Source: Paludibacteraceae bacterium
GTDB taxonomy: Bacteria > Bacteroidota > Bacteroidia > Bacteroidales > Paludibacteraceae
Direction: 5' to 3'
Length of the DNA stretch: 64,000 nt
NCBI GenBank assembly: GCA_017477325.1
Contig: JAFUWV010000001.1
Span: 1 to 64,000 of the forward strand
How positions within the stretch are numbered: the first letter of the stretch is position 1; each line of letters begins with the position of its first letter. Positions 50,314 to 60,424 of the stretch are shown here, piece by piece. The translations under genes were made by a program, and so were the position numbers. A model generated the notes under the pieces. The model saw nothing but the letters and a program-made list of their open reading frames with translations, did not search any database and was not told the DNA's origin.

Positions 50314-50982
50314 ATGCAAGTCCGTATAGACGAGAGCTGGAAACAAGTATTACAACCAGAGTTTGACAAGCCATACTTTGAGTTGCTGACTGAGTTTGTG
50401 AGGCAGGAGTACAAGACAAAACAGATATTTCCTCCCTCGGGGCTTATCTTCAATGCTTTTGACAGTTGTCCGTTCGACAAGGTACGTGTTGTGATAATAG
50501 GTCAGGACCCGTATCATGATGTCGGCCAGGCTCACGGACTCTGCTTCTCAGTGCAAGACGGAGTGCGTGTCCCCCCTTCGCTGCAGAATATATACAAAGA
50601 GATAGAGAGCGACCTCGGTCATGCTTCTCAGTGTGCACCTTCAGGCAACCTGCAACGCTGGGCGGAGCAAGGAGTATTGCTGCTAAACGCCACTCTGACA
50701 GTAGAAGCCCATCGTGCAGGCAGTCACCAGAACAAAGGTTGGGAGATATTCACAGATGCAGCCATAAAAGCTCTCTCTGACAAGCGTGAGAACATAGTGT
50801 ATATGCTGTGGGGCAGCTATGCCCAGCGGAAAGCGTCATTTGTAAACAGTCAGAAGAACCTTATACTGAAAGCCGCCCACCCTTCCCCGCTCTCTGCTTA
50901 CAACGGTTTCTTTGGCTGCAAGCACTTCTCCAAAGCCAATCAGTATCTGCAACAGCATGGCCAGCAGCCTATAGAGTGGTAG
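50314..50982 (+). CDS. ung: Uracil-DNA glycosylase, family 1
   Basis: Removes uracil from DNA to start base-excision repair; 222 residues, normal for the family. Water-activating loop GQDPYHD at 63-69 with catalytic Asp65, GVLLLNATLTVE, and the minor-groove loop HPSPLSAYNGFFGCKHFS with catalytic His189. Convergent with the DUF2490 gene; the shared GTAGAGACGCA hairpin at 51018-51045 lies between them. Confidence 0.97.
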   Translation: MQVRIDESWKQVLQPEFDKPYFELLTEFVRQEYKTKQIFPPSGLIFNAFDSCPFDKVRVVIIGQDPYHDVGQAHGLCFSVQDGVRVPPSLQNIYKEIESDLGHASQCAPSGNLQRWAEQGVLLLNATLTVEAHRAGSHQNKGWEIFTDAAIKALSDKRENIVYMLWGSYAQRKASFVNSQKNLILKAAHPSPLSAYNGFFGCKHFSKANQYLQQHGQQPIEW

Positions 50983-51017
50983 AGACTGAATATAAAAACA
51001 GAGCGGTAAGAATACAA

Positions 51018-51045
51018 GTAGAGACGCACCGGAATGCGTCTCTAC
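51018..51045. terminator. REP-like hairpin between convergent genes, likely bidirectional terminator
   Basis: GTAGAGACGCA (51018-51028), CCGGAA loop, TGCGTCTCTAC (51035-51045), then T-rich sequence on the + strand. Same palindrome family as 45163-45237. Confidence 0.65.
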
Positions 51046-51071
51046 TCTTTTCTTCCACAACCTGCTACTGC

Positions 51072-51908
51072 TTACCAACCGAAGTTGTAGGTTATACCAA
51101 TAGCATGCTGGTAGCCTAATTCCTCAGTGAGTTCTATGTTGCCGGCTTTCTTGGTGATATTGATATCACGGTCGTAACCATAGTTGAATCGATAGTAGAA
51201 GTCGAGTCCGTTATTCTTGTTAATCTTATACTTAACACCAAGTGCAGTACGCACACGCCTTATATACTGATGTCCATTCTTCTGCTGATACTCGGGGACA
51301 TTGAGTGTGTTGACCACTTCAACCCATGCATAGGGTTTAACAGGTTTGCTGAAGCTTGAATACTCGACTCCCAACTTACTACGGAGCATGAAGTTGTATT
51401 TATTCTTCTCGAGAGGGTTGACTGAGTCAGTACGCATCTCACACATAGCGCGCTCTCTGAGATACAGCTTGACACGATTGACCTTCACCGAGCCTGTAAC
51501 ACCCACGAACACACGATGACGAAGGAACTCGTCAGGGTCGCTCCAGTCTTTGGTGCCCATCAGTTTGAGAGTGTATCCTGCATCGAGTTTGAGATATTTG
51601 AGGGGTGAATAGGAGAATGTGAGTGTAGTGTAAGACTTGTTGAATGCCATACCAAAGTCGGTGAAGGCATTGTTTACCGGAGTAGTGCTGAACATATCGA
51701 AGCGCAGATCTTCAGATATACCCAGATGAATGCCATTATTCCATTTTTTAGTGAATTCAGCTCCTGCACGCAGTTGCACACTATGCCAGACATTCTTTTC
51801 CTGAGATGCATATTCCCAAGCATAAGATGCAATAGGTGTCAGCAACATCAGAGATAGACAGAGGAGACCTCTAACTATCAACTTTTGACTTTGAGGCATC
51901 ATAATCAT
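51072..51908 (-). CDS. DUF2490-like outer-membrane barrel protein
   Basis: A 278-residue exported protein: signal peptide within about 1-29, then barrel strands typical of DUF2490 (VWHSVQLRAGAEFTKKWNNG, RRVRTALGVKYKINKNNGLDF, YQHAIGITYNFGW). DUF2490 proteins are outer-membrane proteins of unknown function. Its start overlaps the DUF4956 stop by four bases, and it ends the eight-gene operon. The barrel could give the VTC/DUF4956 pair access to the cell surface (inference). Confidence 0.78.
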   Translation of the reverse strand: MIMMPQSQKLIVRGLLCLSLMLLTPIASYAWEYASQEKNVWHSVQLRAGAEFTKKWNNGIHLGISEDLRFDMFSTTPVNNAFTDFGMAFNKSYTTLTFSYSPLKYLKLDAGYTLKLMGTKDWSDPDEFLRHRVFVGVTGSVKVNRVKLYLRERAMCEMRTDSVNPLEKNKYNFMLRSKLGVEYSSFSKPVKPYAWVEVVNTLNVPEYQQKNGHQYIRRVRTALGVKYKINKNNGLDFYYRFNYGYDRDINITKKAGNIELTEELGYQHAIGITYNFGW

Positions 51909-52654
51909 TTGAACTTAGTTATCATGTCAATAGTGCTTTCCTCGTTTTTAGGAAGCGTATATGTAACTTTGATGTATGCCACATCACGAAGGAAGTCGAT
52001 ATGACCGACTTCAAGACGCTGTATATCAAGTCCTGTGCGAGTCTTGAGATCTTCAAGCAATTCGGCACGACGTTCAGGCACAACATTCTCTATTTTCTCA
52101 TAGAGAATAATCTTGGTGCTTGTACGGTGACGATTAGACCACAACTCAAAGCCAAAGGTAAGTACGATAAACAGGATGTTAGCAAGTAGCAACTGATACC
52201 ACGCGAGGTCGTCCGCCTTAAGAGAAAGAGAGTTGATGACAGAGATGGAGATGATTATAAACAGGTAGGTCATCTCGCGAATAGGCACTGTCTCAGTACG
52301 GTATCGTATCATACCGAAGATGGCAAACAGACCAAGTACGAAGCCGGTCTGGATGTCAAGAATCTGCATCAACCATAGGAGCAGGAACATTGCACTGGAG
52401 AAGAGCATGAAAGTGACGTAATAGTCACGACGATGGCTGATACGATAGTAGATAAAGTACACAATAACCCATGTTATGAGGAAGTTGAAGAGGAACATGA
52501 GCGGCAGTGTAACGAAACTCTCGCTTACGTGCAGGAAGTCTGCAATAGAGTTCATAAGATAGGAGATGCTGTCTGATTTGCCATACTGGGCGGCAATTGT
52601 GGGATCTACATCGAGGAACTCGAGTGTAGGATTGGTTAAATCTGGTTGTATCAT
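51905..52654 (-). CDS. DUF4956 membrane protein
   Basis: A 249-residue inner-membrane protein with four predicted helices at about residues 50-70, 80-102, 112-128 and 135-170, and a soluble C-terminal domain (about 180-249). The block FVLGLFAIFGMIRYRTETVPIREMTYLF is diagnostic of DUF4956 (shown here only in part: GMIRYRTETVPIREM). DUF4956 genes recur next to VTC-domain genes in many phyla, and the pair is suspected to make or handle an anionic polymer. The ATG at 52654 is chosen over a TTG at 52678. Confidence 0.85.
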   Translation of the reverse strand: MIQPDLTNPTLEFLDVDPTIAAQYGKSDSISYLMNSIADFLHVSESFVTLPLMFLFNFLITWVIVYFIYYRISHRRDYYVTFMLFSSAMFLLLWLMQILDIQTGFVLGLFAIFGMIRYRTETVPIREMTYLFIIISISVINSLSLKADDLAWYQLLLANILFIVLTFGFELWSNRHRTSTKIILYEKIENVVPERRAELLEDLKTRTGLDIQRLEVGHIDFLRDVAYIKVTYTLPKNEESTIDMITKFK

Positions 52655-52683
52655 ATAATTGGATTTTAGAGTATTCAAGAATG

Positions 52684-53469
52684 TTACTTGGTGGCAAGCA
52701 GTTTCTCTATCTTGCGTATTTTAGCCTTGAAGCGATTGCGTTTGAGAGCGGGAGAGGTGAGGGCTGTTCCCACACAATACTTACTAATCTTGAGTGGAGT
52801 GATCCGCAGAGTCTGCATTATGCCAAGCATAGGTGAAGGTACATTGCCGTCGCGTTTGAGTTCGACAATGACAAGGTCGGGATAAGTTTTTTTCAAGCCT
52901 GTCAATTCGTTTTCCCATGTCAGATTGAGGTCGATGGTGAGACGCTCCGTCTTCTGCTTATTGACAAGAGTGATACGGCGGAAGCAGGTACGCAGTTTGG
53001 GAGAGATTGAATCCCAAGTATATCGACTCTTCTGAGCAATGAAGTCTTCCACAGAAATATCCTGCTTCTTGCTATGCCCTACGATATCACCTGTAAGTGC
53101 AAATCCAGGCACAGTAATACGTTTTTTCTTTGTTCTGCCTTTATTGTTTTTCCGCTTTATCTCCAAGAAAGTCAAGTCGGAGTCAACATACTGGCGTACA
53201 CGAATCTTCTGTCTGACAAGTTGCCTGTCATGGTGACGAATGTACATATCAAGCGAATCGGTATCGTAATACACGGTATCGTAGGTAGCAAGCCGCTGAC
53301 GATTTATCTCCTGGGCAAAGTAGTCGTGCTTTGCCATATTGAGAATAAGGGGCAGTTGGCGTATTGTTACCACGAACTTGGTATCAATACGATTCATAAG
53401 TTTGACAGACTCCATCTCCTCAAGAGAGATAGGTTCAAACTGCGCCAGAAGTAGTTCGTAATCAGTCAT
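52684..53469 (-). CDS. VTC-domain (tunnel-fold) protein, polyphosphate polymerase-like
   Basis: A 261-residue cytoplasmic protein of the VTC family, the tunnel fold whose yeast member Vtc4 makes polyphosphate from ATP. The expected basic and acidic tunnel residues are visible: NRIDTKFVV, TVYYDTDSLDMY, RQKIRVRQY, FLEIKRK, ERLTIDLNL, VIVELKRDG and KISKYCVG. No membrane segment. ATG at 53469 overlaps the 3' end of the YD-type gene by eight bases; a TTG at 53484 is less likely. Bacterial VTC proteins of this type, encoded beside DUF4956, have no settled product. Confidence 0.85.
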   Translation of the reverse strand: MTDYELLLAQFEPISLEEMESVKLMNRIDTKFVVTIRQLPLILNMAKHDYFAQEINRQRLATYDTVYYDTDSLDMYIRHHDRQLVRQKIRVRQYVDSDLTFLEIKRKNNKGRTKKKRITVPGFALTGDIVGHSKKQDISVEDFIAQKSRYTWDSISPKLRTCFRRITLVNKQKTERLTIDLNLTWENELTGLKKTYPDLVIVELKRDGNVPSPMLGIMQTLRITPLKISKYCVGTALTSPALKRNRFKAKIRKIEKLLATK

Positions 53470-53887
53470 TGAACAGGTATTCAAAAACCTTCACGGAATA
53501 GAGTTTTCCGTTTGGCAGGTAGTTGTACTGCTTAGCCTTAGTGCCGTCCGCATTCCATTCATACTTACGGATACGGACAGGGCGGTTGCGGTCGTTATAT
53601 ACAACTTCTTTCACCACCTTGCCTGTAGCATCGTCATACTCGAAAGTAACACGCTCGCGCTGTCCATAAGTGGCATACTCAATTTCTTCTATCTTGCGGC
53701 CTTTGGCATCATAAACGTTAACGTGGTCAAGCCAGCGGGTTTTCGTACCGCTGTCAGTATTCCATTCTTTAACCGTAAGATTTTTACGTTTCTCACGCTT
53801 AGCCAGTTCCTCCGGGCTGAGAAGCGACTGTGCAGATGCTCCCATGACGAAGAGCAAGAGACAGAATAGAATGTTTGTCCGTTTCAT
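53462..53887 (-). CDS. Small secreted YD-repeat-like protein
   Basis: 141 residues with signal peptide (1-20, ending ASAQ). Then Lys/Arg-rich sequence and about three short repeats of the YD/MORN kind (VNVYDAKGRKIEEIEY, VTFEYDDATGKVVKEVVY, KYEWNADGTKAKQYNY). Related in style to the lipoprotein at 41851-43380. ATG at 53887 chosen over a TTG at 53893. It lies ten bases after the third beta-helix gene and overlaps the VTC gene, so it is firmly part of the operon. Confidence 0.7.
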   Translation of the reverse strand: MKRTNILFCLLLFVMGASAQSLLSPEELAKREKRKNLTVKEWNTDSGTKTRWLDHVNVYDAKGRKIEEIEYATYGQRERVTFEYDDATGKVVKEVVYNDRNRPVRIRKYEWNADGTKAKQYNYLPNGKLYSVKVFEYLFND

Positions 53888-53897
53888 ATACAATTGA

Positions 53898-55616
53898 TTA
53901 TTTTGTTACAGTTCCGTTTATATTACCCATACCATTGAATATGGTTGTTCCGCCTGATACGGTCACACCTGATGTGAGAGTTGGCGCAGACTTGGTGCAA
54001 ACAGTCATAGAGTTGGCACCTGAGGCGGGAGTCTTGAATGCAAAAACGAGAGTTGAATTGTCGTAGAGTGCATACCAAGTATTGTTGCTATATGTAGCGG
54101 ATGTTGACTTGATACTTACACTTGAACCTTTCTCGAGTCCTCCTATTGCTACTACAGAACCGCCGGAGACAGTCAGTTGCTTACGTTCCTCGGAGTTGGC
54201 ATCTATACCCACTTCTGCACCTCCTGCCGCGATGGCATAGACGATGCCTCCCTTGATATAGCAGTCGCCATTGGCATCCATTCCATCGTTGCCGGTACTA
54301 TAAGCACATACATATCCGTCAGTAATGGTCAGGTCACCACCGGAATTGATTGCATCGTCGGAGGACTGTGCATAGACAGTGCCACCGGAGATAGTCAGCG
54401 CAGACTTGCTCTCAATACCTTCAGGACCGGAAGCCTCGTTTCCTCCCATACCACCTGGCTGAGTGCCTCCACCCATACCACCTGGCTGAGTGCCACCTCC
54501 CATACCACCTGGCTGAGTGCCACCTCCCATGCCTCCACCGGGACCTGCTTGTGGAGCAAAGGATGCAGAAGAGCTACCACCTTCACATATAACATTGATG
54601 GTGCCTCCACTAATATTGATATTGCCCTGAGCCTTGATACCTTTGGCAGAAGATCCCACCGTATTTACATTGATGACGCCACTGGTTATATTGATTTGTC
54701 CGAGTTTGGCAAGGATACCTTTGCCATCATCGCCAGAGGTAGTTATATCTATAGAGGCACTACTAACGGAGATATTGCCTGCCTTACTTTTGATACCCTT
54801 ATCAACACTCTTGATGGTGATAGTACCACCAGAGATATCTATGGATGAGTAGGCAAGGATGCCCTTGTCACCTGCAGCAGTGATATTGACAGTACCAGCA
54901 GTGATGACGACAGAACTTGTGTCACATTGAATACCTTCGCTTGCAGCATTTATGGAGAGCGAGCCACCATTGATGATGATGCCATCGTTAGCATGGAGAC
55001 CATCGGAGCCAGTGGCTTTAAGTGTGAGTTCACCTTCACGAATGCGGATATAATCATCAGAAGCAATAGCGTGCTTAAAGTTGCCATTGACAGTAAGAGA
55101 GCCGTCACCTGTAACAATGATTTGTCCCTCAGAGAAGAGGGCAGCCTTCTGGTCCTCTGAAGAATCAGCATAGGTGCTGCCATCAGAGAGAGTACTACTA
55201 CCATCGAGTACAAGATAGAGCGACTTGCTTGACTGATTGTTGATTGCAGGTCCATTGGAGCAAGTGAGTGTAAGAGAGTTAAGCGTGAGTTTGTACTTAT
55301 AGTCGCTATAAACTTTCAGTTGTCCTGAGCCAGAGCCACTAAGTACATATTCGATATTCTTAACGGTAGAAGTTATTGTAACATAACCACTCTCATTAGT
55401 TGCAGTGACTCCATCAGGAAGTTCACTGATAGTAGCAGTGGATCCGCTCCATGAGACAGAGACCGAAGAATTCCATGTTTGCTCTTCTACGAAATCAGAA
55501 GAGTCATCACCTGTGTTAGTTGTTGTATCGGTTGTCGTAACGGAAGTAGTGCTGTTACAAGCCGGCAATAGAAATATTGCCGCTGTAACTGCTGTAATCA
55601 AAATGATCTTTTTCAT
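53898..55616 (-). CDS. Cthe_2159-type beta-helix lipoprotein
   Basis: A 572-residue lipoprotein (lipobox LLPAC, Cys20). After a Thr-rich linker comes a right-handed beta-helix with repeated ISGGTI/NISGGTINV rungs, matching the Cthe_2159 carbohydrate-binding family, whose founder binds acidic polysaccharide. A glycine-rich insert at about residues 363-396 (GGMGGGTQPGGMGGG) breaks the helix and is coded by a 27-bp tandem repeat. The protein is a paralog of the two genes upstream, with the same HAIASDDYIRI-type rung. No T9SS domain is seen, so lipid anchoring replaces it. Confidence 0.82.
   Translation of the reverse strand: MKKIILITAVTAAIFLLPACNSTTSVTTTDTTTNTGDDSSDFVEEQTWNSSVSVSWSGSTATISELPDGVTATNESGYVTITSTVKNIEYVLSGSGSGQLKVYSDYKYKLTLNSLTLTCSNGPAINNQSSKSLYLVLDGSSTLSDGSTYADSSEDQKAALFSEGQIIVTGDGSLTVNGNFKHAIASDDYIRIREGELTLKATGSDGLHANDGIIINGGSLSINAASEGIQCDTSSVVITAGTVNITAAGDKGILAYSSIDISGGTITIKSVDKGIKSKAGNISVSSASIDITTSGDDGKGILAKLGQINITSGVINVNTVGSSAKGIKAQGNINISGGTINVICEGGSSSASFAPQAGPGGGMGGGTQPGGMGGGTQPGGMGGGTQPGGMGGNEASGPEGIESKSALTISGGTVYAQSSDDAINSGGDLTITDGYVCAYSTGNDGMDANGDCYIKGGIVYAIAAGGAEVGIDANSEERKQLTVSGGSVVAIGGLEKGSSVSIKSTSATYSNNTWYALYDNSTLVFAFKTPASGANSMTVCTKSAPTLTSGVTVSGGTTIFNGMGNINGTVTK
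54447..54527. repeat. 27-bp tandem repeat, three units
   Basis: Three in-frame 27-mers (54447-54473, 54474-54500, 54501-54527), the last two identical and the first differing by a few bases. They code for the GGM-GGGTQP repeat, so copy-number change would keep the frame. Confidence 0.85.
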
Positions 55617-55673
55617 ACGTATTTTACTTGTAAGTTTATAGTTATATCGGAATACATAAATTGTGCCAAAGTG

Positions 55674-57740
55674 CTACTTGAGAATAGAGTATGGTGTTGA
55701 CACCGAGGACACAGTGACAGAAGAAGAACCTGTAGAGGAGATTGCAGGCGAAGTATAGAGTCCGTGCCATGTCTCGCCAGAGACCGTTGCTCCGGAATAA
55801 AGAGTAGCAGAAGAGCCTTTGGTAAGAGACGGAGAAGAGAGCATAACGAAATACTGGTTGCCTCCCATACCGCCTCCCCCACCTGGTCGTCCACCTCCAG
55901 AAGAGGAAGATGAGCCACCTGACACTTCCGGCTTAAAGGCCATGATGTTGGTTGAACCGGATTGGAGGACATAGTTAGTGGAAGACACAGTGCCTATAGA
56001 GAATACAGAAGGCTGTGTGCTACTGCTATTGGGATAGGGTGTCATGCCGGAATTATAGAGACCTGCGCAGAGAACAGTACCTCCTGTAATTTGCAGGTAA
56101 CCCGGCGAATCCACGTCAATAGGTGTTTCCGGTGTGGTAGTTGCATAGGCAATAGTAGTTCCGCCAGAGATAAGGACACTGGCATTACTGTCGATAGCAT
56201 CGTTATTGGTTGCCCGAGCATATATTGTGCCACCATTAATAACTATATTACCGGTAGCTTGGAGTGCGTCGTCGTAGGAATAAGACTCAACAGTGCCACC
56301 ACTAATGGCGAGAATCTTCTTACTTTCGATACCCTCGCTACCTTCTCCACCTGTAGCACTTATGTTGATAGAGCCACCAGAGATATTGATATTACCATCT
56401 ACTTTGATACCTTTAGCAGATGAGCGGTTGTTGCTTGAAGAGGAAGAAGAGCCTCCGCCACCCCAGCCTCCGCCGCCTCCGCCGGAACTTCCATAGGTGT
56501 AACGTGAGCCGGTAGTAGTGATATCGAGAGTGCCGCCAGTGATATTTAGTTCAGAATCACAACTAATACCCTTACCTCCAGTGCCGGTACTCTTCATGGT
56601 AAACGTACCTGCGTTGATAGTCATCACACCATCAGACTTGAGACATGCAGAGGCTTTAGTCTTCTTCTCTGAAGTATCATACTTGCCTCCACCTGCAGTT
56701 GTAAGTGTGAATGTGCCACCATTGATGACCATATCGGTGCCAGCCGCTATGGCTTTCGCAGCAGTAGCCGCCGAAGTGCAGGTAATATTGATGGTAGTAT
56801 TATATCCAAGAGCATCGCTGATGACAAGCAGACTATCAGTCTTTATACCTTTGACAGTGGAGGTATCGTTGCCCGCGGAAGTGACAGTCAGGTTGAGAGT
56901 ACCTCCGTATATCATTGCTCTACCATTGAGTTCGTCTGTGGAGTCATCGGTCTTTTCTATCTGTACACAATCATCCCCTGCCTTTTCTACAGTGATATTG
57001 CCATTATTCATCTCAAGATACTGACCTATATGCAAACCATCACCTACAGAGTTTTTAACAATTATAGAGCCTGTGAACTTTTTCTTCAACTGCATATACT
57101 CGTTGCATTTGAGAGCATGTTTGGTGTTGCCGGTGAGAGTAAGAGTGCCTGAGCCGGTGATTTCAGGATGCCCTTTGATACTGAGGCATGCATTTTGCGA
57201 GCCATTCTTCCCATCCGTGAGCGTATTTGCACCTTCTATAGAGAGGGCTATGCGCTTTCCATTACGGATATTGACAGCAGCACTGTCAGAGCAAGCAAGA
57301 GTCAGAGAAGAGAGATTGACAGTGCACTTATACTGTCCGACAAGATAGAACGAGCCATTGGCTGATGAACCTGAGAGTGTATAGGTAATTTCTTGAGCAA
57401 CAGTAGAATCCTGGGCGATATTGACATGTGCCCCATTGACTTTGGCTGTAATATACTTTGCTATGTTGCCAGCGACAGTGACAGCAGCGGAAGATGAGGA
57501 ATAAGCAACAGTGACAAGGCTGCCGGTAACAGATGTCCGGTCAACATACATACGGTCGATGTCAGTCAAGGCAAATGTTTTGTCCATGATGGTGAGTGTG
57601 GAGCCAGACGTATAGTTCATGTTGCCTGTCTGAGATGCAGGGAACTGCCATGTGACAGAGCCTGTCTGCACATTGAGAGTCTGAGCGGAAGCAAAGACAG
57701 AACAAAGCAGAATAATCAATATAAAAGGAGATTTATTCAT
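55674..57740 (-). CDS. Large Cthe_2159-type beta-helix protein
   Basis: 688 residues. Signal peptide (1-19, ending ASAQ), an N-terminal region shared with the 57737-58726 protein (SVTGSLVTVAYSSSSAAVTV, VNGAHVNIAQDS), then a long beta-helix with many rungs of the ISGGTV/INGGTI kind and two glycine-serine-rich inserts (near 415-430, GSSGGGGGGWGGGG, and near 620-640, GGGRPGGGGGMGG). Asp-rich turns such as AGDDCVQIE and NNDAIDSNA could bind calcium, as in the Cthe_2159 structure. No clear T9SS domain at the end. Start overlaps the preceding stop by four bases. Confidence 0.82.
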   Translation of the reverse strand: MNKSPFILIILLCSVFASAQTLNVQTGSVTWQFPASQTGNMNYTSGSTLTIMDKTFALTDIDRMYVDRTSVTGSLVTVAYSSSSAAVTVAGNIAKYITAKVNGAHVNIAQDSTVAQEITYTLSGSSANGSFYLVGQYKCTVNLSSLTLACSDSAAVNIRNGKRIALSIEGANTLTDGKNGSQNACLSIKGHPEITGSGTLTLTGNTKHALKCNEYMQLKKKFTGSIIVKNSVGDGLHIGQYLEMNNGNITVEKAGDDCVQIEKTDDSTDELNGRAMIYGGTLNLTVTSAGNDTSTVKGIKTDSLLVISDALGYNTTINITCTSAATAAKAIAAGTDMVINGGTFTLTTAGGGKYDTSEKKTKASACLKSDGVMTINAGTFTMKSTGTGGKGISCDSELNITGGTLDITTTGSRYTYGSSGGGGGGWGGGGSSSSSSNNRSSAKGIKVDGNINISGGSINISATGGEGSEGIESKKILAISGGTVESYSYDDALQATGNIVINGGTIYARATNNDAIDSNASVLISGGTTIAYATTTPETPIDVDSPGYLQITGGTVLCAGLYNSGMTPYPNSSSTQPSVFSIGTVSSTNYVLQSGSTNIMAFKPEVSGGSSSSSGGGRPGGGGGMGGNQYFVMLSSPSLTKGSSATLYSGATVSGETWHGLYTSPAISSTGSSSVTVSSVSTPYSILK

Positions 57741-58726
57741 TGTATATAAATCTTTTTAGAATTGTTAGTACCAGTCAGAATATACATACCCTTAGGGAGA
57801 GACAGTAGTTTCTCGGCGGAGTACTTGCCGAGACAGGATCCCGTAGAAGTATAAATATGAGTATAATCAGGATCAGAGAAGAGGACATCAGAGAGTGCTG
57901 TCGTCTGATTGGTAACAGTGAGAGAGCCGCTATTCTTAGTGACAGATCCTTCAGTCTTTACGCTTCCTCCGGCAGATCCTTGCATATTGATGCTAATAGC
58001 ACCACCGTTGAGAATGAAGTTGCCTGTGTTTTCTGCAGACGTATCATCGGTTTTCTTAGATACCTGAATGCCATCGTCTGCGAATCCGCTGAGGTTAAGA
58101 ACCCCACTATCCATTTGGAAGTACTGGTTACAGTTGACTGCATCTTTCTTTGCGGAGAGGACATTGATAGTGCAGTTTTTCATTTCGATATATTCTTTTG
58201 CCCAAATAGCATGAGCATAGTTACCATAGACATTGAGTGTTCCTTTTCCTTTGAACTCGATATGCCCTTTGCATTGCAGACACCCCTTCCATGCGGCAGT
58301 GTCGGTGCTGGTGCCATCACGAAGGGTAGAGACGGTTTCCTTCTTGGCACTTATCTCTATTCGTTTGCCATTTTGGATATCTATAGCCGGTCCGGAGGGA
58401 TTGGAAAGAGTGAGTCCGAAAAGTTCGACGGTAGATTTATAAGAGCCTGCGAGGACGAAAGAGCCGTCGGAGGTATTGCCCAAGAGCTGATATATGATTT
58501 CTCCACAAGTAGATTCGCTGACGAGAGAGTCCTGAGTGATAGTGACATGCGCCCCATCCTCAACTACAGAAACATAGTCTTTGATGTTGCTTGCAATAGA
58601 AACAACAACAGAGGCGGAACTATACGTGACTGACACGAGATTGGTTGTGTCGGTGCGATAGTTGACTGAGGCCGACGCTACTACAGCACTCAGCACACCT
58701 AATATGACAGAAAGTAAGCGTTTCAC
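57737..58726 (-). CDS. Cthe_2159-type beta-helix protein with T9SS tail
   Basis: 329 residues. Signal peptide (1-19), short beta-helix (about 60-265; rungs such as GTLNVYGNYAHAIWAKEYIE and GVLNLSGFADDGIQV), then a T9SS-type tail (about 285-329; YTHIYTSTGSCLGKYSA, LPKGMYILTG). A shorter version of the next gene's product. The start is GTG overlapping the previous stop (GTGA). Confidence 0.8.
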   Translation of the reverse strand: MKRLLSVILGVLSAVVASASVNYRTDTTNLVSVTYSSASVVVSIASNIKDYVSVVEDGAHVTITQDSLVSESTCGEIIYQLLGNTSDGSFVLAGSYKSTVELFGLTLSNPSGPAIDIQNGKRIEISAKKETVSTLRDGTSTDTAAWKGCLQCKGHIEFKGKGTLNVYGNYAHAIWAKEYIEMKNCTINVLSAKKDAVNCNQYFQMDSGVLNLSGFADDGIQVSKKTDDTSAENTGNFILNGGAISINMQGSAGGSVKTEGSVTKNSGSLTVTNQTTALSDVLFSDPDYTHIYTSTGSCLGKYSAEKLLSLPKGMYILTGTNNSKKIYIQ

Positions 58727-59127
58727 CTGATAAGTATTTGTTCTGACTGTGAACCTTGACGAAGGATATATGCTCCCGGCTGCAGAGAAGTGACAGCCTC
58801 GCGAAGAGATGAGTACTGCCCCACGGCCTGTCCTGCAAGTCCGTAAACAGCAGTTTCAGCATCCGCAGAGAGAGCCGCAGTGATCTCAAGTGATGTTGAA
58901 GAACCAGCACCCGAGAAGTACATGGTCTGCAATTCACTGAGATTGAACGACAGTGTCTGCTCTCCATTTGTGACTTTGAGAGTAGTGTTCTCTACTGTGA
59001 GGACAAGATTGGATACTGATATCCGCTCAGAACCGGCACTTGTGACGAATGTCAGACAGGAGTAAGTATCTGCATAGGATGCACATAAGGGGAGTAATGC
59101 AACAAGTATTGACAATAGATGTTTCAT
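58723..59127 (-). CDS. Small secreted protein with T9SS-type tail, first gene of the operon
   Basis: 134 residues: signal peptide (1-19), a short beta domain (20-85; LTFVTSAGSERISVSNLVLT, LSELQTMYFSG), and a C-terminal sorting-type region (about 92-134; TAVYGLAGQAVGQYSSL, LQPGAYILRQGSQSEQILIR). It is nearly all sorting domain, so the cargo part is tiny. The ATG at 59127 is chosen because a promoter element (59146-59153) lies inside the longer frame that starts at 59181. Confidence 0.72.
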   Translation of the reverse strand: MKHLLSILVALLPLCASYADTYSCLTFVTSAGSERISVSNLVLTVENTTLKVTNGEQTLSFNLSELQTMYFSGAGSSTSLEITAALSADAETAVYGLAGQAVGQYSSLREAVTSLQPGAYILRQGSQSEQILIR

Positions 59128-59145: not shown

Positions 59146-59153
59146 CAAAGGTA
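59146..59153 (-). promoter_or_regulatory. -7 element of the VTC/Cthe_2159 operon
   Basis: TACCTTTG on the - strand, 18 bases before the start codon at 59127. A TTG at 59172-59174 with an 18-base spacer is the likely -33 element. Confidence 0.6.
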
Positions 59154-59260: not shown

Positions 59261-59262
59261 AA

Positions 59263-59290
59263 AAGAAGTGACATTTTGACATCACTTCTT
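59263..59290 (-). terminator. Terminator downstream of queA
   Basis: AAGAAGTGA (59263-59271) pairs with TCACTTCTT (59282-59290); on the - strand the hairpin is followed by a T-rich tract. Confidence 0.7.
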
Positions 59291-59353
59291 CGATTGAGAA
59301 TTCTTCTGTTGAGAAGATTATCAGCAGAGGGCTGAGTGCAGAATAATATATCA

Positions 59354-60424
59354 TCAGTCAACGATAAGGAGTGCATCTCCGTAGTCACCGAAATGCAACC
59401 CTTCTTTGACAGCGACTTCGTAGGCGTGCATAACCTCGTCATATCCACCGAATGCCGCAGTCATCATGATTTGTGTAGACAGAGGCATATAGAAATTACA
59501 GAGCATAGCATTTGCCACTGAGAAGTCGTAGGGCGGGAAGATGAACTTGTTAGTCCATCCGGAATATGCTTTGACATGTCCGTTAGTACCTACGACGGTC
59601 TCAAGTACACGCATAACATCGGTACCAACAGCGCAAATACGCTTCTCCTGTTCATGGAGGCGCTCGATAGTATCGACTACCTTTTGTGAGATCTCCATCT
59701 GCTCAGAGTCCATCTTATGTTTTGTCAAGTCCTCCACATCGATTGGTTTGAAGTTACCGAGACCGACATGCGAGGTTACGAAACTCCATTCGATACCGTG
59801 AATCTCCATACGTTTGAACATTGACTTGGAGAAATGCAGTCCAGAAGCCGGCACAGCGACAGCGCCTTCTTTCTGTGCAAAGATAGTCTGGTAGCGCTCA
59901 GCATCTTCTGCGTCACGTTCGTTAGGATTCTCCATGTCACGATGAATATACTTAGGCAGAGGGGTATGGCCTATAGCAAATAGCTTTTCGCGGAACTCTT
60001 CATTAGTATAGTCAGTAAGGAAACGGAGGGTACGTCCACGCGAAGTAGTGTTGTCGATGACTTCGGCAACGATGCTGCTATCCCCTGCAAAATAGATTTT
60101 ATTACCTATACGAATCTTACGCGCAGGGTCAACAAGAACATCCCAATAGCGGTTCTCGTGGTTAAGTTCACGAAGCAGGAACACTTCGATGGCGGCTCCT
60201 GTGCGCTCTTTAGTACCATAGAGACGTGCAGGAAAGACCTTGGTATCGTTGAAGATAAAGTGGTCACCATCGGAGAAATAGTCGAGCATGTCGGGAATAG
60301 ACTTTATCTCTACATCTCCAGTCTTCTTATGAAGCACCATGAGCCGCGCTTCGTCACGATAAGGAGCGGGATACTGAGCAATAAGCTCTTTGGGAAGATT
60401 GAATTTGAATTGTGAGAGTTTCAT
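59354..60424 (-). CDS. queA: S-adenosylmethionine:tRNA ribosyltransferase-isomerase
   Basis: Transfers and isomerises the ribosyl part of SAM onto 7-aminomethyl-7-deazaguanine in tRNA, the penultimate step of queuosine synthesis. 356 residues with the family blocks [12 protein letters not shown] at the N-terminus, [21 protein letters not shown] (given in part), [17 protein letters not shown] and [15 protein letters not shown]. It lies 24 bases after truB and ends in a terminator at 59263-59290. Confidence 0.96.

Follow-up and report, generated by a model that had tools for sequence, protein, structure and literature searches.

Bacterial polyphosphate is usually ascribed to the cytoplasmic enzyme PPK1. 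In the yeast VTC complex (Vtc1/Vtc3/Vtc4), a polyphosphate polymerase is coupled to a membrane channel. The families of the yeast polymerase and of DUF4956 also meet in Gram-positive bacteria, where genes for CotH, a polyphosphate polymerase and DUF4956 (in some cases followed by DUF4832) are contiguous with pel genes in Streptococcus and Clostridium, as described in an extract of PMC7112168; the VTC-DUF4956-CotH trio in Pel loci is thus already published. On the outer-membrane side, the phosphate/pyrophosphate porins OprO and OprP (Porin_O_P family) are described as uptake channels in an extract of PMC9769906.

The locus reported here consists of eight co-directional genes at 59127..51072 (minus strand, ORF coordinates) on a contig of a Paludibacteraceae bacterium whose genome is 71% complete. 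It lies in the window, by which we mean the whole stretch of 64,000 nucleotides that was analysed. The genes run in the order small secreted protein, three Cthe_2159 proteins, YD, VTC, DUF4956 and DUF2490, which agrees with the eight ORFs, their position and their order as given in a preliminary description of this DNA. The features are as follows.

59262..59291, minus strand: terminator-like hairpin after queA, 13-pair stem then T-rich tail, by consensus scan only
59146..59153, minus strand: candidate -7 box TACCTTTG, 18 bases upstream of the ATG at 59127, fitting TAnnTTTG
58723..59127, minus strand: small secreted protein with a possible T9SS tail (TIGR04183 E 0.033, sub-threshold); frame open from 59181
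57737..58726, minus strand: Cthe_2159 beta-helix protein 1 (PF14262 E 4.9e-35); signal peptide and T9SS-like C-terminus by eye
55674..57740, minus strand: Cthe_2159 beta-helix protein 2 (PF14262 E 6.5e-49); signal peptide by eye
53898..55616, minus strand: Cthe_2159 beta-helix protein 3 (PF14262 E 1e-50); lipoprotein-type signal (LLPAC) by eye
53462..53893, minus strand: "YD" protein, secreted, with DUF2963-like repeats (PF11178 E 3.1e-6); pI 9.3
52684..53484, minus strand: VTC protein, polyphosphate-polymerase-type tunnel enzyme (PF09359); likely ATG start at 53469
51905..52678, minus strand: DUF4956 membrane protein (PF16316 E 2.4e-44)
51072..51908, minus strand: DUF2490 protein, probable outer-membrane barrel (PF10677 E 5.8e-16); pI 9.5
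51016..51047, both strands: terminator-like hairpin at the operon end, 14-pair stem

Most gene junctions had been described as overlapping by 4-8 bases. Four of the seven do overlap, by 4, 4, 4 and 8 bases (the 8 applies if VTC begins at its first internal ATG and becomes 23 when counted from TTG), but the remaining three are gaps of 57, 4 and 5 bases, the last becoming 29 if DUF4956 starts at its first internal ATG. The hairpin after queA probably sets the operon apart from the upstream genes, and that at the operon end is common to the operon and the convergent gene 50314-50982; the scan gave 8 terminator-like sites against 6.0 expected. The -7 box follows the Bacteroidota motif, a match that is weak by itself because the window holds 65 such matches versus 38.5 expected, and the number of sigma-70 promoter matches in this region, 23, is close to that expected by chance (mean 16.0, sd 3.8). 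The arrangement suggests that the eight genes share one transcript.

The VTC protein is a firm member of the polyphosphate-polymerase family by its profile, modelled fold and catalytic residues, and here the preliminary description was right. The Pfam match (E 3.3e-31) takes in positions 1-233 of 235, that is, the whole domain. The best matches of the predicted fold are yeast Vtc polyphosphate-polymerase structures, and the tunnel fold resembles the Vtc proteins more closely than it does other enzymes of the tunnel type. R95, R97 and E208 are invariant across 28 VTC sequences and align with R264, R266 and E426 of Vtc4, residues whose mutation impairs yeast VTC. The product of the enzyme would be polyphosphate. 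The likeness to the yeast complex thus comprises the tunnel-enzyme fold, the catalytic residues and a constant membrane partner; the differences are that the bacterial protein (266 aa, with VTC as the sole Pfam match at E up to 1) has no matched SPX or fused membrane domain, that its partner is DUF4956, and that the destination would be the cell exterior rather than the vacuole. An apparent VTC fusion in another locus (778 aa frame) was taken on visual inspection for a long overlapping reading frame in DNA rich in GC, and was dropped.

The preliminary description had called for a co-occurrence survey, and VTC and DUF4956 were found together beyond chance in 101 relatives (Fisher p 7.6e-23) and in 247 phylum genomes (p 1.0e-30), both p values being too small because related genomes are not independent. 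In the 247 Bacteroidota genomes, all 43 that bear VTC also carry DUF4956, which lies within 1.5 kb of 45 of the 48 VTC matches. DUF4956 is found without VTC in 25 of the 68 DUF4956-bearing phylum genomes, so that polyphosphate translocation cannot be its only role. Matches to PPK1 and PPK2 were absent from the same-genus genomes searched (0/61 and 0/37, respectively), so VTC is the sole polyphosphate-synthase candidate found in the genus. Its proposed product is that of PPK1, while the enzyme family is different; VTC is not simply a PPK replacement, because 14 of the 19 VTC-bearing families also have PPK1.

In other phyla, phosphate genes adjoin the VTC-DUF4956 pair, a phosphate-selective porin among them. 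A probable outer-membrane protein or porin recurs as the next gene. In Pseudoalteromonas, the gene after DUF4956, in the place held here by DUF2490, encodes a Porin_O_P family member like OprO/OprP, although DUF2490 is a separate, uncharacterised family. HlyD-like partners accompany the pair in some loci, as found with a profile seeded with a protein (L042) whose own Pfam HlyD match falls below the cut-off. Phosphatase and transporter genes also neighbour the pair; these are common genes, counted without a chance rate. In Nonomuraea, neither VTC nor DUF4956 was found among the four ORFs scanned.

We tentatively predict that the operon encodes a module for polyphosphate synthesis and export, a reading to which we give slightly less than an even chance. 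VTC, as a cytoplasmic tunnel enzyme, would transfer gamma-phosphates of ATP to a growing chain, like yeast Vtc4, and the chain would be fed at once into the inner membrane via DUF4956, past arginines at its cytoplasmic mouth. DUF4956 would play the part that the membrane channel has in yeast, with the same coupling of synthesis to translocation, and its C-terminal domain may regulate passage of the chain. Once in the periplasm, the anionic chain would be bound or guided by YD, which is basic, and would cross the outer membrane through the DUF2490 barrel, likewise basic. Surface partners (Cthe_2159 here, CotH elsewhere) may then fix it at the cell surface, probably by divalent cations.

The predicted translocator, DUF4956, is matched by PF16316 over its full length (1-169 of 169), with about five predicted membrane helices followed by a C-terminal alpha/beta domain. 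Its predicted model is middling (pLDDT 78.6) and has no Foldseek match at E 0.001; no solved relative was listed by sequence or by fold, which does not establish a new fold. From the model and the positive-inside rule, we propose that invariant arginines lie at the cytoplasmic mouth. The protein as a whole is acidic (pI 5.6 here; median 5.69, n=117). By fold, the C-terminal domain weakly resembles small alpha/beta domains, including aspartate kinase ACT domains, without reaching significance, and 3 of 27 DUF4956 proteins weakly match MgtC (best 8.9e-5). These matches would suit a regulatory pair, in which VTC makes short polyphosphate or handles triphosphate as a cytoplasmic signal, DUF4956, with its membrane part and sensor-like domain, reads that signal, and the two control another surface polymer or surface proteins. 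Data from Streptococcus intermedius point in the same direction: an extract of PMC12345266 reports that Pel level or aggregation is altered when the DUF4956 or CotH gene is deleted, with more Pel in the absence of the DUF4956-type gene SIR_1592, and does not list the deletion of SIR_1593 (VTC) among those with such a change. However, such a pair leaves unexplained the recurrent outer-membrane protein or porin gene, the HlyD-like partners and the basic secreted YD protein, and we consider it rather unlikely. Two of the window's beta-helix proteins have a pI close to neutral, that of DUF4956 is acidic, and support for the DUF2490 barrel is weak; these points slightly weaken the export reading, in its broader form too, and slightly strengthen this regulatory one.

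The proteins proposed to follow DUF4956 in the export route are distinguished by their charge. A pI of at least 9 is found in 92% of 83 YD proteins and 90% of 105 DUF2490 proteins, against 15% of 171 secreted-looking controls. The "YD-type" label of the preliminary description has to be replaced, for the best profile is DUF2963 (PF11178) and RHS_repeat reaches only E 0.33. YD relatives are present in 60 of 80 related loci; in loci of other families, YD occurs in 7/19 and DUF2490 in 10/19. Sequence features suggest, though weakly, that DUF2490 is an outer-membrane barrel: the OMP_b-brl family is weakly matched by 4 of 22 aligned DUF2490 proteins, the best PDB match is OmpG (weak, E 0.87), and the last residue is F, W or Y in 75 of 105.

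The beta-helix proteins vary far more between loci. PF14262 was matched by 48 of 50 proteins of the clusters sampled (L079-L158). In the genus, 21 of 33 loci have a gene of this family no more than 8 kb from VTC, versus 1 of 19 loci in other families. In 34 of 80 related loci, some of them truncated at contig ends, the co-directional cluster yielded no beta-helix gene, and neither did 18 of the 19 other-family loci; meanwhile, 15 of 29 VTC-less same-genus genomes carry Cthe_2159 genes. We therefore rejected the beta-helix genes as a fixed core and regard them as a frequent, swappable accessory. A candidate case of Cthe_2159 beside VTC in another phylum, the Acetoanaerobium locus that was the sole plasmid-collection match, was also rejected, as neither VTC nor DUF4956 showed up in the five ORFs scanned there (Cthe_2159 included). 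Small secreted proteins of the kind encoded by the first gene number eight in seven loci, the window counted. The T9SS tails described earlier were not confirmed by profile, TIGR04183 giving the sub-threshold value listed above for the small protein and no match on beta-helix protein 1; a T9SS core gene is present in the genome (SprA_N, E 2.1e-190).

Cthe_2159 proteins are described as binders of cellulose and polygalacturonic acid in an extract of PMC6712302, and the titles of many named relatives point to a rumen or gut origin. Both points fit an operon by which a rumen-type bacterium adheres to plant polysaccharides, with pectin or cellulose as the ligand of the beta-helix proteins and with VTC-DUF4956 as passengers. 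Since the pair stays together in the many loci that lack beta-helix genes, we hold this to be very unlikely. The beta-helix set is acidic (median pI 4.69, below 5 in 85% of 73), which weakens a role as direct anion binders, less so for the first two of the window (pI 6.1 and 6.0). The earlier proposal that the polymer is held on these proteins thus fares poorly: the set is mostly acidic and accessory, and it is YD and DUF2490 that are basic. Any part of the beta-helix proteins in polyphosphate export would accordingly be that of surface partners, as suggested above.

CotH, noted before as missing from the locus, is indeed absent there; the genome has five CotH matches, all elsewhere. CotH (PF08757) adjoins the VTC-DUF4956 pair in Deinococcus, by annotation, and at least 6 of the 19 Bacteroidales loci from other families have it no more than 6 kb from VTC, in five cases on the same strand. 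Pfam confirmed CotH in five of seven neighbours called by our home-made profile, the other two being arylsulfotransferases; that profile thus also takes in arylsulfotransferases with T9SS tails and, by annotation, a lamin-tail protein. Such proximity might be seen as a sign that the product is a phosphate donor or polyphosphate on which CotH-type kinases draw, beyond the cytoplasm, to phosphorylate surface proteins, with the beta-helix proteins as stand-ins or substrates. However, the present locus lacks CotH, and among 11 same-genus genomes (incomplete ones) without a CotH match, five (G021, G041, G057, G059 and G060) keep VTC-DUF4956. In addition, no use of polyphosphate by CotH was found in the literature consulted, and we judge this explanation decidedly unlikely.

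The contiguity with pel genes in Streptococcus and Clostridium would also allow the operon to serve as Pel polysaccharide accessory genes. PelG did not exceed the cut-off in any of 101 genomes of the order, this one included (a partial match in G067, E 7.2e-4, is below it), and on PelG we rejected a Pel accessory operon for this order, its probability being negligible. Compared with the Gram-positive pel loci, the VTC and DUF4956 families and their contiguity are shared; the differences are the order without PelG over the cut-off, Cthe_2159 in the place of CotH at the locus, and the addition of YD and DUF2490 for a two-membrane envelope.

The cytoplasm-to-surface system of the preliminary description is therefore supported as a conserved cluster whose products comprise inner-membrane and secreted proteins and a probable outer-membrane one, but retention on beta-helix proteins is not supported. 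More broadly, VTC-DUF4956 may be a dedicated polyphosphate synthase-translocase with interchangeable conduits (DUF2490, a phosphate-selective porin, or an HlyD-like/outer-membrane efflux pair) and surface partners (Cthe_2159 or CotH), and the sole polyphosphate system in PPK-less gut Bacteroidales; we regard this as possible though clearly short of probable. The occurrence of the pair, sometimes with CotH nearby, in an order without PelG over the cut-off bears on how CotH-VTC-DUF4956 of the Pel loci are viewed. If the export reading is true, the operon would give bacteria an equivalent of the yeast VTC complex, functions would be suggested for DUF4956 and DUF2490, and a VTC route coupling synthesis to export would explain surface polyphosphate in PPK-less bacteria.

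Eight open reading frames, all on the minus strand, occupy 59127 to 51072 in the order given in the preliminary description (a small protein, three Cthe_2159 beta-helix proteins, and a YD-type, a VTC, a DUF4956 and a DUF2490 protein), and the domain assignments made there hold, with corrections, in Pfam. A same-strand gene upstream of the operon, at 59354-60424, is presumably queA, as named from its sequence. The operon boundaries below are consensus matches, not measured ends.

59291-59262, minus strand: terminator-like hairpin of 13 pairs, between queA and the first ATG at 59127
59153-59146, minus strand: TACCTTTG box, between queA and the first ATG at 59127
51047-51016, both strands: hairpin scoring terminator-like on both strands, between the operon and the convergent gene downstream

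The genome containing the window is 71% complete, and the closest named locus among the matches listed is L079, which belongs to a Paludibacteraceae bacterium sampled from roe deer rumen (DUF4956 identity 84%).

The 101 relatives surveyed comprise 61 same-genus genomes and 40 genomes representing as many other families in the order. VTC was detected in 51 of them, DUF4956 in 54 and both in 50, and DUF4956 lies within 1.5 kb of 49 of the 52 VTC matches; of the remaining three, two are at contig ends and one is partial and below the cut-off. Of the 40 other families, 19 carry VTC, and DUF4956 is present in every one of these (p 1.2e-8). In a phylum sample of 247 genomes, VTC was found in 43, DUF4956 in 68 and both in 43; thus, VTC was never seen without DUF4956 in this sample, with 45 of 48 VTC matches within 1.5 kb of DUF4956, and DUF4956 occurs without VTC in 25 genomes. 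VTC matches occur in 16 records of named plasmids, seven of which were inspected. An annotated VTC adjoins DUF4956 in five of the seven (two from Deinococcus, and those of Nitratireductor, Aminobacter and Shinella), the order of the pair being reversed in the last three genera. On a Pseudoalteromonas plasmid, the VTC match adjacent to DUF4956 is only partial. In the Nonomuraea record, the four ORFs scanned included neither VTC nor DUF4956.

Loci with DUF4956 but no recognised VTC include L189:8272-10167, where the convergent gene encodes a pyruvate phosphate dikinase nucleotide-binding domain, and the Bacteroidota locus L186:5412-9611. At L186, an unknown 341-residue protein and then a purple-acid-phosphatase-type protein follow DUF4956, and upstream, on the opposite strand, is a CotH-like gene (E 6.1e-6).

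The structural model of DUF4956 (pLDDT 78.6) predicts five long helices within residues 53-183, followed by a C-terminal alpha/beta domain. Y77, G116, R125, R127 and F140 are invariant in 27 sequences, and the arginines would lie on the cytoplasmic side. Three of the 27 members show a weak MgtC match, in accord with the MgtC and ACT features that PMC12345266 describes for the streptococcal homologue. From PMC7112168 and the description of SIR_1592, we read this Streptococcus intermedius gene as encoding a DUF4956 protein.

The 80 named loci compared were those whose DUF4956 most resembles that of the window; they are therefore biased to near relatives, and some lie on contigs of genomes already sampled. 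The co-directional cluster includes VTC at 77 of them, DUF2490 at 72, YD at 60 and a Cthe_2159-type protein at 46. Pfam confirmed PF14262 in 48 of the 50 Cthe_2159-type proteins. The corresponding counts are 20, 19, 15 and 15 in 20 further same-genus loci, and 19, 10, 7 and 1 in 19 other-family loci. VTC has Cthe_2159 within 8 kb at 21 of 33 same-genus loci versus one of 19 other-family loci, and Cthe_2159 is present in 29 of 32 VTC-bearing versus 15 of 29 VTC-less genomes of the genus (p 0.0013). At least six of the 19 other-family loci have CotH no more than 6 kb from VTC, in five cases on the same strand. Among 40 phylum loci (20 best DUF4956 matches and 20 picked among weaker ones, counts read by eye), VTC adjoins DUF4956 in 31 and DUF2490 is nearby in 14; in a second clade of these loci, an HlyD-like gene, detected with our own profile, stands beside the pair in 12. 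HlyD or biotin-lipoyl matches were found by Pfam in three further phylum loci, and an outer-membrane efflux protein follows DUF4956 at L041, a label shared by L207.

Close to the YD gene, 16 loci (L109:4838-5548 and 15 others) encode members of a lipoprotein family (median 238 residues), and the one member scanned has a carboxypeptidase-regulatory-like domain. The window's own genome also has a weaker Cthe_2159 match (40.2 bits) off the operon, in a 1088-residue open frame at G000:C10:49085-49771 (L036, L058); VTC was not found by our own profile in the stretch fetched around it.

The YD and DUF2490 proteins are basic (median pI 9.38, n=83, and 9.37, n=105), and the beta-helix and DUF4956 proteins are acidic (4.69, n=73, and 5.69, n=117), the window's three beta-helix proteins having pI 6.10, 6.02 and 4.49. 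For comparison, 171 other proteins of the same loci that look secreted by a crude signal-peptide rule have a median pI of 6.01, with 15% at 9 or above; the pI shares are not independent, because the sets consist of related sequences. By the same crude rule, 92 of 105 DUF2490 proteins look secreted; the C-terminal residue is aromatic in 75 of 105, and weak matches to an outer-membrane barrel family were obtained for four of 22. Comparison of DUF2490 with solved structures gave no significant relative (OmpG, E 0.87). As in the preliminary description, we expect that DUF2490 is an outer-membrane barrel.

According to PMC12345266, its authors did not find the syntenic CotH-VTC-DUF4956 trio outside the Pel locus. 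Deinococcus taeanensis has this trio with no pel gene annotated within the 16.6 kb seen. Six Bacteroidales genomes in which PelG did not exceed the cut-off have CotH close to the pair; in one of them (G067), CotH is on the opposite strand and PelG gives a weak, partial match. These cases suggest that the trio also exists outside the Pel locus. In the window's own genome, five CotH-kinase matches were observed by profile, two of them adjacent and none near the operon.

G000:C2:96162-98362: CotH-kinase profile matches
G000:C2:322141: CotH-kinase profile match
G000:C2:382442: CotH-kinase profile match
G000:C8:67571: CotH-kinase profile match

Genes related to phosphate adjoin the pair in several lineages outside Bacteroidota, although phosphatases and transporters are common genes. 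In Nitratireductor, the genes after DUF4956-VTC encode a phosphate transporter and a phytase-family esterase, and in Aminobacter and Shinella such an esterase comes after the pair; these three loci probably represent one lineage. On the plasmid of Deinococcus sp. QL22 (L161:5635-12475), an acid phosphatase and phnDCE (a phosphonate/phosphate ABC transporter) adjoin VTC-DUF4956; neither adjoins the pair of D. taeanensis, which has CotH upstream. A phosphate-selective porin follows DUF4956 in Pseudoalteromonas, and a protein of that porin family does so at the Bacteroidota locus L190.

PPK1 was found in 26 of the 40 other-family genomes and accompanies VTC in 14 of the 19 VTC-bearing other families. 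Within the genus, where many genomes are incomplete, PPK1 was found in none of 61 genomes and PPK2 in none of 37, so VTC is the only polyphosphate-enzyme candidate found there. Titles and abstract openings, in a search of open-access journal papers, yielded no paper linking VTC-DUF4956 with Cthe_2159 or DUF2490, nor one proposing polyphosphate export by these proteins. In PMC12345266, the deletions reported to alter the Pel phenotype do not include that of the streptococcal VTC gene, an observation that counts against export. Export is proposed because the membrane partner is constant, envelope proteins of unrelated families recur beside the pair, basic secreted parts are present, and phosphate genes neighbour the pair. 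On these grounds, VTC-DUF4956 may export polyphosphate.
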